Part shown: one piece after another, positions 12,799 through 17,454 of the stretch | How the letters are laid out: every line of letters starts with the position of its first letter | Position numbering within the stretch: the stretch's first letter is position 1 | Assembly (NCBI GenBank): GCA_034520365.1 | Contig: JAXHNP010000002.1 | Location: 310,001-374,000 of the forward strand | Origin: Desulfobacterales bacterium | Lineage (GTDB): Bacteria > Desulfobacterota > Desulfobacteria > Desulfobacterales > Desulfosalsimonadaceae | Direction of reading: 5' to 3' | Length of the DNA: 64,000 nucleotides | The notes under the pieces: model-generated | What the model was told of the DNA's origin: nothing | Seen by the model: only the letters and a program-made list of their open reading frames with translations | The model's database searches: none | Program-made: the position numbers and the translations under genes

Positions 12799-13584
12799 TC
12801 AGTTGCCATTGCAATTACATCTGCCTGCTTTTTGAACCTCCATGTCTTCAGTTGTCATTTCACCATTGGAGGATCCAGGCAAATTGGTTTCGCTTCTTAC
12901 CCAGACCATTACATTACCTCTAATTCGAACAGTTCCATCTAACAAAAGATGTCGACCGAATAAACTCATATTGGCAGAATATTCGTTAACGTTAACTTCA
13001 ACATCAACATATCCCCAGTATGCCATTTCTACGATTTGATTGTTAATCGGTTCCCTGATATTATCGCTACCAATGAAAAATCCCGGCGGATTTAAACGAT
13101 CTTGTTCTCGCAAATCAGGTAGCTGGTAAAAATTGTATTTATAGCTTTCATCAACAAAAAACTCGTTTGGCGGGTTTGTCAGGCTGGTATATTCTTTCCT
13201 AACAATGTTGTGACGACTTAGATAAACGACTTCAATGCTACTTGGAGCTTCTTGGTTTTTCAACACCATTTCAAGGTCTTCATCCCGGATCCGGTGATTG
13301 ACCACTGAATAGGGATAGTTCCCATCTGCTTCAAGTTCCATGTCCGGCTTGCCGGCTGCAATAAAAAAGTCGGCCTGCTCATCATCAATATACTGATCCG
13401 CTTTGTCGGTTTCCGCCGTAAATTCATGGTTTCGCGGGGATAAGTGGAATATGCCGTTTTGTACATCGCTTAGTTCTTTGAGCATCTGCGAGCGGGCAGG
13501 CAAATAAGTAAGCATTATTACCAGGCCAATCACGGACAGGGTCCCAAAAAATATTTTTAGCTGAGGGACAAATTTGATAAGCAT
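12799..13584 (-). CDS. Hypothetical protein with N-terminal membrane anchor
   Basis: A 261-residue protein with one hydrophobic segment (residues 10-28) behind a short Lys-containing start, so it is probably anchored with a periplasmic body, or secreted. The body is acidic and rich in Asn, Glu and Tyr. The last 30 residues are polar and hold a CNCNGN end with two cysteines. No domain is recognised. The ATG has AGAGG about 11 bp upstream. Its base composition is more AT-rich than that of its neighbours, and AT-rich spacers flank it, which could mean later acquisition. No close operon partner is visible. Confidence 0.6.
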   Translation of the reverse strand: MLIKFVPQLKIFFGTLSVIGLVIMLTYLPARSQMLKELSDVQNGIFHLSPRNHEFTAETDKADQYIDDEQADFFIAAGKPDMELEADGNYPYSVVNHRIRDEDLEMVLKNQEAPSSIEVVYLSRHNIVRKEYTSLTNPPNEFFVDESYKYNFYQLPDLREQDRLNPPGFFIGSDNIREPINNQIVEMAYWGYVDVEVNVNEYSANMSLFGRHLLLDGTVRIRGNVMVWVRSETNLPGSSNGEMTTEDMEVQKAGRCNCNGN

Positions 13585-13696: not shown

Positions 13697-14107
13697 TTAA
13701 TCGCCATATTCGATCAGGCGGTCCAATATTAATCCGAAAAAGCTCTCGGTATCCGCGGATGTGAAAAACCAGCCCATATGGGTGAGGCAGGCCCGGCAAA
13801 GGGCAACCTGCCACATATAGCCGGCAAACCAGACGAATTCATCGGTCGGGGTGCCGACTGCGCCGCACCCCTCTGCTTCTTTGAAGCAGCCGATATCGAA
13901 TACAATTCCGTGGGGATTGGCAAACGTGTGCTGATAGGCTCCGTTTATAGAGATTCTGGCCGATTTGGGGGTTATTGGGTTTAAGCATTGCCGGCAGAAA
14001 AAAAAAGGCGCCTCTTTTTCTTCTTCCTGCGCCTTTTCCGCTTCCTTAATATCGGCCTGAGAATTTCCATTTCTCAGGGATGTTTTAAAAAAATAAGTAT
14101 TTAGCAA
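13697..14107 (-). CDS. CULT-domain (bacterial cereblon-like) protein
   Basis: A 136-residue protein whose residues 35-133 match the CULT domain, the thalidomide/cyclic-imide-binding module of cereblon. Zinc ligands are Cys38/Cys41 and Cys104/Cys107. The tryptophan cage is Trp93, Trp99 and Trp113. These spacings equal those of human Trp380/386/400 and Cys391/394. TFANPHG in the middle is also typical. Residues 11-33 are a charged, probably disordered lead. There is no ATG in frame before the domain: the start is TTG at 14107 with only a weak ribosome site, so the true start is uncertain. Bacterial CULT proteins bind uracil-like and imide ligands in vitro, but their cellular role is not known. 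No operon partner is adjacent. Confidence 0.85.
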   Translation of the reverse strand: MLNTYFFKTSLRNGNSQADIKEAEKAQEEEKEAPFFFCRQCLNPITPKSARISINGAYQHTFANPHGIVFDIGCFKEAEGCGAVGTPTDEFVWFAGYMWQVALCRACLTHMGWFFTSADTESFFGLILDRLIEYGD

Positions 14108-14226
14108 TGCCCTGGGTCCCCGGCGCTTGAAAAATCATATAATAAGCATAAATTAAAAGAACCAATAAGGATTGTCAACCAGGGCAAGCCGTCCATTAAA
14201 GGCACTGAAGGAAAAAACGAACAATG

Positions 14227-14341: not shown

Positions 14342-16228
14342 ATGTGCGGAATCTACGGGATTGTTTCAAACCAATTGACATCCGCCCGGATTCGTTATTT
14401 GCTCGCCCGGATGCGCCATTGCCTGCGTCACCGGGGGCCGGATGATTTAAAAGAAAATGTATACCCGGTCAACAATACCGCGGTTGGCCTGGGGTTTACC
14501 CGTCTTTCCATCCTGGATCTGGATACCGGCATGCAGCCGATTCAGTGCCCCGCTGATGAGACGGCCATTGTCTGCAACGGCCAGATATATAATTATCTTG
14601 AGCTCAAACAAAGCGTTTCTTCCGAGCCCTTCGTATCCAAAGGCGATGCGGAGGTGGGGCTTCATCTTTATCGGAAAAAGGGGCCTGCGTTCTTAAATGA
14701 ATTAAACGGCATGTATGCCGGTGCGATTCTGGACCCACTGAAACAACGGCTTTTACTGTTTCGCGACCGGTTCGGGATTAAACCCCTCTACTTTTGTGAA
14801 AATAACGGCCGATTTGCTTTCTCCTCCGAGATCAAAGCGCTTTTTAACGGCGCGGAAATGGAGAAAACCTTAAACCGTAAAAATCTGTTCACATATTTTA
14901 CCTATCGATACGTGCCGGGCAGCGAAACCATGTTCCAGGGGATTCAAAAGCTTCCGCCCGGGGCGTTTCTGGATTATGATCTCGCGTCCGGAACATATTC
15001 GATCAAAAGATACTGGGATTACCGGCTGGATCAGGTAAATCCGGATATGGATGTGGAAGATGCGGCTGACCGTTTCTATGAACTGTTTTCAGATGCGGTT
15101 CGGATAAGGCTTCGCTCGGATGTTGAGGTCGGCTGTCTGCTCAGCGGCGGGATAGATTCCTCTGCTGTCTGCGCTCAGGCTGCCATGAGCCGGCCGCTTT
15201 TAAAGTTGTTTACCATTGGTTTTGGCGTGGATAAATATGATGAGCTGCCTTTGGTCAGAGAGTTTCTGGCCGATCATCCCCGGCGTTTCAAGGATACCCG
15301 GCTTTTTTCAGGGGATTGCCGACAGGAAATGTTAAATGAGCTGCCTGCGCTTGTGGCCGCCATCGAGGAACCGATCTCTTTGGGTACCATCCTGCCCACG
15401 GATCAGGTCTGCCGGATGGCAAGTGAGAAGGTAAAAGTTGTTTTGACAGGGGAGGGGGCGGATGAAATATTTGCCGGATACAGAAAGTTCATGATTGAGA
15501 TGGCCGCCGCCCATTATCCGGAATTGCCGAAGGATCAGCAGGAGGCCCTGATAAAGGCTTACCCTGAGTTAATGGCATACATAAGCAACAGGGATTCGGA
15601 TCCGGCCCGGCGCTATATCCAAACCGAGGCGCTTTTTGACCCGGAAGAGATTAGCCGATTAACCGGGATGGAGCATTCCGGTCCGTTTTTTCCGGAAGAT
15701 GCCCGGCCCTGTTTAAGCGGCAGTGAGCATCCGGTAAACCAAATGATCGGCTTTGAAACCCGGTTTCGCCTGCCGGATTACGTGATACTCCGGCTCGATA
15801 AACTATCCATGCGCCATTCCCTGGAAACCCGGACTCCGTTTCTGGATTATCGGCTGGCCGAGTTTGCCGCCTCCCTGCCGGTGCATTTAAAAGTCAACCT
15901 GGCAGCGGATCGGGAAAAATATATCTGCAGCCATGCGTATTTAAAGCACGGACTCATGAATAAAAAAAACGCCTTCCGAAAAAAGCAGCCGTTTACCATC
16001 CCCGTCGCCCATTGGCTGGCGGATGCGAAAACCCGGCCGGAGTTTGTGGATGAAATTTTATCCGGCGACATGATCCGTCGGCAGGGAATTCTAAATCCAG
16101 ACTTTGTATCGCAAATCGGCCGACAGGTAAAAACCGGGGGGGTTGGTCCGGAAACGCTGGTTTCAGAGGCAGATCGCTTGTTTGCCATCATTGTTTTTAC
16201 CCTCTGGTACGATACATTTTTCATGTAA
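14342..16228 (+). CDS. asnB: Asparagine synthetase (glutamine-hydrolysing)
   Basis: A 628-residue two-domain amidotransferase. The N-terminal class-II glutaminase begins MCGIYGIVS, so Cys2 is exposed after Met removal; RHRGPD and CNGQIYN line the glutamine site. The C-terminal synthetase domain carries the PP-loop LSGGIDSSAV (near residue 270), which activates aspartate as beta-aspartyl-AMP. The later GEGADEIFAGY is typical. The length and MRHSLETRTPFLD fit AsnB rather than a natural-product cyclase. It is followed after 7 bp by a glutamate-cysteine ligase-family gene. Homologues in polysaccharide clusters modify sugars, but no such cluster is present, so amino-acid biosynthesis is the likely role. 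Confidence 0.92.
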   Translation: MCGIYGIVSNQLTSARIRYLLARMRHCLRHRGPDDLKENVYPVNNTAVGLGFTRLSILDLDTGMQPIQCPADETAIVCNGQIYNYLELKQSVSSEPFVSKGDAEVGLHLYRKKGPAFLNELNGMYAGAILDPLKQRLLLFRDRFGIKPLYFCENNGRFAFSSEIKALFNGAEMEKTLNRKNLFTYFTYRYVPGSETMFQGIQKLPPGAFLDYDLASGTYSIKRYWDYRLDQVNPDMDVEDAADRFYELFSDAVRIRLRSDVEVGCLLSGGIDSSAVCAQAAMSRPLLKLFTIGFGVDKYDELPLVREFLADHPRRFKDTRLFSGDCRQEMLNELPALVAAIEEPISLGTILPTDQVCRMASEKVKVVLTGEGADEIFAGYRKFMIEMAAAHYPELPKDQQEALIKAYPELMAYISNRDSDPARRYIQTEALFDPEEISRLTGMEHSGPFFPEDARPCLSGSEHPVNQMIGFETRFRLPDYVILRLDKLSMRHSLETRTPFLDYRLAEFAASLPVHLKVNLAADREKYICSHAYLKHGLMNKKNAFRKKQPFTIPVAHWLADAKTRPEFVDEILSGDMIRRQGILNPDFVSQIGRQVKTGGVGPETLVSEADRLFAIIVFTLWYDTFFM

Positions 16229-16235
16229 GGCAGAT

Positions 16236-17177
16236 ATGGCACTGAACAATCAAGGCGGCAACCCTGATTTTAATCAATTACTGACGGTGTTTAAGCGGCA
16301 TTACCTGTCTGTTTTATCCGGCTTAACCGGCGGGAGGCAGCGAAGCTACGGATTTGAATATGAATTTTTGCCTGTTCGCCCGCTTTCTATGGATGATGTC
16401 GCTGCAGTTGGGCCTTGCCTGACTGAACTGGGGTTTTCGCCCAGAAAAAAGGATTTTATCCACCCGGATCTCGGCATGTGTGTTGACTTTGAACCCGGCG
16501 GGCAAATCGAGTATTGCAGTCCGCCGCTTAAAAGCGATGACCATCAAAGGTTTGCGAAGCTGATCTCGCTTATTCAGACCACCAACGCGCAAATCAAATC
16601 AAAGTTGGGCATTGAATATATTGGCACCGATTTTTTGCCCGGAAGGACTGGCGCCCCCTTATGCTTGAGTTCAGAGCGATACCGGCAGCTCCATGAAAGG
16701 CTTTCGCAGGTAGGCAGCCGGGGGCTTGAAATGATGAAGGGGACGGCCTCAATTCATCTGCATGTGGTGATATCCAATTTTGACAATCTGCTGCCGTTAT
16801 TCAATGCGCTTTGCGAATTATCTGTGGATAAGGATTTTCGGATGTCATGGCACAGACGCCACATATGGGATCATACGGATGCCACCCGCTGCGGTCGTCC
16901 ACCGTGCTGCTTTGCCAACCTGGAGACAGCGGATCAATTGATCCATCGATTAATCGGTTTTGCCCTGCGGGCAGAGGTGCTTGGCGAGGAGGTTCCGTTT
17001 GCCAAAACCGCCGATCAATCCTATGAGGCATTTCTAAATCATATGACAACCGTGTTTACCGATATTCGATTTAACCTGAAAGGGCCGACCCTTGAACTGC
17101 GGACGCTTGACAGTATGCCGGTATCCCGGTTCAGGGAAAAATGGCAAAAATTTATTCAAATAATGGAAGAGATCTAA
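16236..17177 (+). CDS. Glutamate-cysteine ligase family protein (GCS2-type carboxylate-amine ligase)
   Basis: A 313-residue ATP-dependent carboxylate-amine ligase. RSYGFEYEF near residue 35 and KGTASIHLHV near residue 170 match the metal/glutamate-binding strands of GCS2 enzymes, and LELRTLDSMP near the end fits the family. The expected reaction joins glutamate to cysteine, the first step to glutathione. The start at 16236 follows the asnB stop by 7 bp; a longer frame from 16143 would overlap asnB heavily. A glutaredoxin gene starts 16 bp downstream, supporting a thiol-redox role. No glutathione synthetase gene is seen here, so gamma-glutamylcysteine could be the end product. Substrate is inferred. 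Confidence 0.8.
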   Translation: MALNNQGGNPDFNQLLTVFKRHYLSVLSGLTGGRQRSYGFEYEFLPVRPLSMDDVAAVGPCLTELGFSPRKKDFIHPDLGMCVDFEPGGQIEYCSPPLKSDDHQRFAKLISLIQTTNAQIKSKLGIEYIGTDFLPGRTGAPLCLSSERYRQLHERLSQVGSRGLEMMKGTASIHLHVVISNFDNLLPLFNALCELSVDKDFRMSWHRRHIWDHTDATRCGRPPCCFANLETADQLIHRLIGFALRAEVLGEEVPFAKTADQSYEAFLNHMTTVFTDIRFNLKGPTLELRTLDSMPVSRFREKWQKFIQIMEEI

Positions 17178-17193
17178 AAGGAGGGATTGGTTT

Positions 17194-17454
17194 ATGCCGG
17201 AAATCGAAATCTATACATCAAGCACTTGCGGATACTGCAAACAGGCCAAAAAACTGCTTGACGGCAAGAATGTGGCCTATGATGAAAAGGTAGTGGATGC
17301 AAATCCCCAAGTTATTGCCGAGGCGGTTAAACGCTCCGGCGGCAGACGGACCGTGCCCCAGATTTTTATCAATGGCCAGCATGTGGGCGGCTATGACGAG
17401 CTTGCTGAATTGGACAAGGCCGGTAAGCTTGATCCGCTGCTGAGTGACAATTAA
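17194..17454 (+). CDS. grxC: Glutaredoxin 3-like dithiol glutaredoxin
   Basis: An 86-residue cytoplasmic thiol-disulfide oxidoreductase. The active site is Cys12-Gly-Tyr-Cys15, close to the CPYC of GrxC. The TVPQIFING cis-Pro loop and the GGYDEL glutathione-binding segment are intact, and the length is standard. It is reduced by glutathione or a related thiol and passes electrons to protein disulfides. AGGAGG lies just before the ATG. Being joined to the glutamate-cysteine ligase gene suggests that the thiol made by that enzyme is its reductant. Confidence 0.92.
   Translation: MPEIEIYTSSTCGYCKQAKKLLDGKNVAYDEKVVDANPQVIAEAVKRSGGRRTVPQIFINGQHVGGYDELAELDKAGKLDPLLSDN

Follow-up and report, generated by a model that had tools for sequence, protein, structure and literature searches.

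A single-domain CULT protein of Desulfobacterales with an intact tryptophan cage, a possible reader of C-terminal cyclic imides

What might a protein made of little more than the thalidomide-binding domain of cereblon be doing in a bacterium? The question is raised by an open reading frame in a 64,000-nucleotide stretch from the genome of a Desulfobacterales bacterium of sulfate-reducing type (the window, by which we mean that whole stretch), in which an earlier note had recognised, from the sequence alone, a cereblon-type (CULT) protein with an intact aromatic cage. Cereblon itself is described as recognising C-terminal cyclic imides, formed mainly from asparagine through ageing, stress or the action of PCMT1 (PMC11974815; PMC13001092); we found no study of the role of CULT proteins in bacteria in the open-licence literature. 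Our preferred reading, to which we assign a probability of roughly 45%, is that this is a single-domain chromosomal CULT binder whose cage reads C-terminal cyclic imides, the same mark that is read by cereblon.

The open reading frame lies on the minus strand and encodes 136 amino acids from a TTG start, and its position was confirmed.

13697..14107, minus strand: CULT-domain protein (open reading frame; phmmer match to MsCI4; AlphaFold2; VIA-align)
14150..14178, minus strand: TTGACA-17-TAATTT, a promoter-like block 5' of the TTG (same-genus alignment; weak)

The non-ATG start that the earlier note had proposed is supported by comparison within the genus, as the window shares TTG-CTA-AAY with both same-genus relatives in the comparison, the bases immediately 5' of it differ, and one relative carries an in-frame stop three codons 5' of the TTG. 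A CULT match was not found in a third same-genus relative, G003, whose assembly is 71% complete. TTGACA-17-TAATTT or TAAATT recurs 5' of the TTG in all three same-genus sequences aligned; a promoter scan returned output from which the block at 14150-14178 is absent, and we therefore treat it as suggestive.

We find that the product is, with near certainty, a CULT-domain protein. Against solved structures, phmmer matches it to MsCI4 (4v32_A) at E 7.4e-26 and to the best cereblon chain at E 9.3e-16. An AlphaFold2 model computed from a 40-row alignment (A2) has pLDDT values that, taken in ten-residue blocks, stay at 91-98 from residue 41 to residue 130, with about 60 in residues 1-30; the first 35 among the best 50 Foldseek matches listed for this model are MsCI4 entries. 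Structural superposition with VIA-align gives Z 19.3 and an rmsd of 2.0 over 104 residues with wild-type MsCI4 (4v2y_A), Z 19.7 and 1.7 over 103 residues with mutant MsCI4 (6r0q_B), and Z 17.9 and 1.6 over 103 residues with cereblon (8tnp_B), so that the predicted structure, modelled without zinc or ligand, has a beta-tent fold like that of MsCI4. The only Pfam family to match, Yippee/Mis18 (PF03226), does so weakly at 20.2 bits, under its curated cut-off of 26.6 bits, so that membership is not supported; NCBIfam returned no match to the protein up to E 0.1.

The closest solved counterpart, MsCI4 (MGR_0879 of Magnetospirillum gryphiswaldense; PDB 4v2y and others), is likewise a single CULT domain, at about 40% identity, with the cage, zinc cysteines and NPxG motif in common. 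Identity to the thalidomide-binding domain of cereblon (CRBN) is about 33%, with the same fold and cage spacing, but the 136 residues are accounted for by the CULT domain and an arm of about 33 residues: there is no LON match in Pfam, and the LON and DDB1-binding regions that precede the CULT domain in a cereblon-type E3 substrate receptor are absent. At 11 distinct CULT loci with long open frames (12 rows, with L007 and L054 being one and the same locus) no fused domain was recognised by eye in the frames, which look like plain upstream extensions; an extra stretch fetched for this check, L227, gave no CULT match. A bacterial CULT group, found mainly in delta-proteobacteria and made up of proteins consisting entirely of the CULT domain, has been described by Lupas et al. 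2015 (PMC4287342), and the present protein is an additional member of that group and no new kind.

The residues that form the zinc site and the cage, read from the translation together with E90 and Y97, are the following; counts refer to 128 distinct sequences.

13985..13996, minus strand: first zinc CxxC, C38 and C41 (128/128, a count that is built in, the sequences having been excised at that motif; invariant in alignment A1)
13907..13918, minus strand: NPxG hairpin-tip motif NPHG, N64-P65-H66-G67 (translation; N64 and G67 in 128/128, P65 in 127/128)
13829..13831, minus strand: cage tryptophan W93 (128/128; invariant in A1)
13811..13813, minus strand: cage tryptophan W99 (128/128; invariant in A1)
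13787..13798, minus strand: second zinc CxxC, C104 and C107 (127/128, one gap; invariant in A1)
13769..13771, minus strand: cage tryptophan W113 (127/128, one gap; invariant in A1)
13763..13765, minus strand: F115, the counterpart of MsCI4 Y101 (F in 96, Y in 31 and a gap in 1 of 128)

The NPxG motif is named as such in PMC4449219. Since the search pattern that retrieved 80 of the loci, those from genome contigs, itself includes two cage tryptophans, W93 and W99 are to some extent bound to be conserved in them; in A1, a 48-row alignment whose loci came from a whole-sequence homology search, W93, W99 and W113 are all invariant, as are F94 and the four zinc cysteines. Both A1 and the 40-row A2 were chosen by hand from 61 loci, with near relatives dropped and with L099 and L102 left out, their first CxxC having been misassigned. 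CULT identity and an intact cage, as the earlier note had them, are thus borne out together by phmmer, A1, AlphaFold2, VIA-align and the counts over 128 sequences.

The same note had claimed the exact spacing of human cereblon for cage and zinc cysteines alike. This holds for the cage, where the intervals of 6 and 14 residues between W93, W99 and W113 equal those of MsCI4 (79/85/99) and of the human protein (380/386/400; numbering of both from PMC8900816), but not, it seems, for the zinc site, where the distance between the CxxC pairs appears to be two residues shorter than in human cereblon. The latter estimate comes from the residue ranges aligned by VIA-align combined with the numbering in PMC8900816, not from a residue-level alignment to the human sequence; by those ranges the human protein would have two extra residues ahead of its first cage tryptophan, and the stretch that separates the CxxC pairs is where they most likely lie. 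Relative to MsCI4, the phmmer alignment is gap-free between the CxxC pairs and through the cage, and the window protein differs in having F115 in place of Y101; the aromatic cage of an MsCI4 Y101F variant is described as chemically identical (PMC8900816). Two further cysteines are nearly invariant besides those of the zinc site, C74 (122/128) and C81 (118/128); MsCI4 has a cysteine matching the former and a leucine at the position of the latter.

What would such a cage hold? MsCI4 binds uracil and uridine (PMC4287342), and it binds thalidomide and uridine with low micromolar affinity (PMC4449219), which makes imide and uridine binding by the window protein a sound expectation by analogy. It is thus likely that the protein binds some small ring ligand of the cyclic-imide or uracil-like class in its cage, as MsCI4 does, and we propose that it acts as a binder and not as an enzyme. 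C-terminal cyclic imides are in our view somewhat more likely as the ligand than uracil-type compounds, and in the mechanism that we put forward the physiological ligand would be such an imide, aspartimide or glutarimide, on proteins that have aged or been treated by PIMT. PCMT1 is a PIMT and is able to make the C-terminal cyclic imide (PMC11974815; PMC13001092). The window's genome encodes a PIMT at G000:C2:280026-280634, which scores 235.4 bits and passes the family cut-off, and the mark could therefore form here; of the 389 genomes of the order, 387 have a match to the PIMT model and 369 have one over the cut-off, and this near universality means that the presence of PIMT does not discriminate between readings. 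Among the matches listed, most genomes have more than one, and the weaker ones may be other methyltransferases. If the cyclic-imide reading is true, the target of thalidomide would have a ubiquitin-independent counterpart in bacterial quality control.

A protein that senses uracil or uridine, in which the cage would close on free uracil or uridine and the protein, once folded, would signal to a partner, is the alternative that we weigh most seriously, and we consider it rather unlikely. In its favour, beyond the uracil and uridine binding of MsCI4 (PMC4287342; PMC4449219), a deoxyuridine complex of that protein has been solved (4v31), and part of the MsCI4 domain has been proposed to fold only when ligand is present (PMC4449219), a published precedent for partial folding upon binding. 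Low micromolar affinity, however, does not establish a pyrimidine as the physiological ligand, and no pyrimidine-metabolism gene is found among the 15 window proteins scanned, CULT included, a result that covers the window proteins, the neighbours in other loci having been clustered without annotation. We doubt more strongly that this is a zinc protein whose cage serves folding and holds no ligand: ligand binding in this particular subgroup is an expectation by analogy, which leaves room for such a role, but the cage tryptophans do not vary in A1, where homology over the whole sequence brought the rows together, and the solved relative MsCI4 does bind ligands (PMC4449219).

Cyclic imides on protein C-termini remain our preferred ligands, and the gene neighbourhood does little to sharpen the choice.

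14342-17454, divergent from CULT, upstream: asparagine-synthase-like gene, GCS2-like gene and glutaredoxin
12799-13584, on CULT's strand, downstream: 261-aa protein with no match in Pfam or NCBIfam that passes the cut-off

The asparagine-synthase-like gene (TIGR01536, 383.8 bits; cut-off 267.1) heads a divergent block that would offer a partnership in which the CULT protein senses or binds a cyclised asparagine or glutamine product. With 22 loci out of 122 distinct ones in which it divergently adjoins CULT, it is the commonest neighbour cluster within 2.5 kb, but the 21 of these with a known family are all confined to the window's own family, f1 (L124 has no assigned family), and within the same genus G002 (locus L050) keeps CULT with secG and tpiA in the place of the block, so that we regard the partnership as very unlikely. 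At 12 of the 122 loci the 261-aa protein follows CULT on its own strand, and in the window an EF-G gene is also found downstream of CULT. No neighbour cluster within 2.5 kb is conserved beyond families across the 122 loci, many of which are cut by contig ends, so that absence of a neighbour is not proof. Neighbour clusters follow families, and genomic context therefore says little on function; we reject the neighbourhood as a functional guide.

Excised inteins end in a cyclic imide, and their recognition by the protein is chemically plausible on that ground, but it is extremely unlikely: CULT is present in 13 of 18 genomes with inteins and in 235 of 371 without (389 genomes of the order; Fisher p 0.62, no association), and no intein was found in the window's own genome.

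The earlier note had suggested that the charged N-terminus is perhaps an interaction arm. This stands in part: the arm carries a motif at a near-fixed distance from the domain, mainly in Desulfobacterales, but the motif is weak across the most divergent sequences.

14069..14095, minus strand: arm motif YFFKTSLRN, residues 5-13 (motif search, regular expression)
14006..14068, minus strand: variable charged linker from the arm motif to the domain, residues 14-34 (arm sequences; low pLDDT)

The motif consists of hydrophobic residues, R or K, any residue, and P or S, and in most cases the first zinc cysteine comes 33-36 residues after it; the window copy has S where most relatives carry P. A motif search over 83 arms under 72% identity scores 267, compared with at most 133.1 in ten shuffles, and although the real set was given 12 restarts and more iterations against 4 restarts for the shuffles, which favours it, the gap is too wide for that bias and the result survives. 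With 45 arms that share less than 62% identity the search scores 131, where 15 shuffles reach 108-128, a gap not too wide for the corresponding bias of 15 restarts against 6, and the best motif differs from that of the 83 arms; when this set is split in half, held-out matches reach 9% where 5% are expected. With clades left out in turn the motif is recovered in 11 of 82 arms at scattered distances (binomial p 0.0026 against 5%), compared with 4/82 and 7/82 in the +1 and +2 frame controls, a poor test in that one clade of 53 is necessarily held out whole.

Searched as a regular expression, the motif is found in 62 of 121 distinct proteins, where 500 shuffles gave 1.8 on average and never more than 7; for the 61 proteins whose loci were fetched later the count is 44, against a shuffle mean of 0.7 and a maximum of 5. 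Both counts are to be read with the expression and its distance window having been written after the arms of both batches were seen, with the later 61 only partly independent of the first batch, where the motif was noticed, and with shuffles that ignore the kinship of related sequences. Arms under 40 residues (7/128) are excluded from the regular-expression count, short arms are likewise left out of the 83-arm, 45-arm and leave-clade-out sets, and one of 219 loci, whose first CxxC was not found, is excluded from the arm set. Alignment A3 holds 50 of the 128 proteins, chosen mainly among motif carriers. Over disjoint pairs, of which 27 of 55 are counted (those whose first member has the motif), identity is 0.56 in the motif, 0.45 in the linker and 0.27 in the upstream part; the Wilcoxon p is 0.014, and a sign test of 18 to 9 gives p 0.12. 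AlphaFold2 models the arm with low confidence and without secondary structure both in the window protein and in L133.

We read the arm motif, from these sequence comparisons, as a feature of a Desulfobacterales clade and not of bacterial CULT proteins generally. In the crystallised MsCI4 chain of 125 aa the alignment begins at residue 20, and in contrast to the longer arm of the window protein its pre-domain part is too short for the motif at that distance, so that the arm need not be part of how CULT proteins work in bacteria at large. We found no report of an arm of bacterial CULT proteins in the open-licence literature, and the CULT passages and Discussion of PMC4287342 do not mention an N-terminal arm motif.

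In the mechanism proposed here, the flexible arm would dock a partner through its motif, a protease or its adaptor, and the marked protein would be handed over. That step taken alone is improbable in our estimation, and neither the 11 long-frame loci, which yield no fusion, nor any neighbour that transcends families points to proteolysis. The same low standing attaches to the fuller proposal of a ubiquitin-free cereblon pathway in Desulfobacterales, in which imides arising from PIMT or ageing would be read by CULT, the arm would dock a protease or adaptor, and damaged proteins would be removed; were it true, the degron pathway of cereblon would have there its ancestral form or a parallel one. 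The recurring short motif offers a handle for finding the partner.

The gene is nearly always single-copy, and roughly two thirds of the genomes sampled from the order carry it. One CULT match is found in the window's own genome and matches occur in 40 of 60 genomes of relatives, its own included; an alignment query finds them in 248 of 389 genomes of the order (140 of the 201 better ones), as one match in 240 of the 248 and two in 8. A single-sequence query of the phylum finds 29 of 297 genomes, and within this phylum the class of G190 has matches in 8 of 85. Viral contigs gave no CULT match in scans that start from exact peptide patterns, nor did plasmid and phage collections queried with the window protein alone; distant members can escape both. 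A fold search of BFVD returned nothing at E 0.001 or better, with a viral peptide-methionine (R)-S-oxide reductase as best match (E 0.07); the methionine sulfoxide reductase MsrB has the same beta-tent fold (PMC4287342). Of 395 stretches that the pattern picked out on GTDB contigs, 375 were confirmed as CULT, and the 80 kept are mostly titled as Desulfobacterales, Desulfobacteraceae or Deltaproteobacteria, with one titled as SAR324 and one as Thermodesulfovibrio. The closest titled relatives are Desulfobacterales MAGs (L109, L110).
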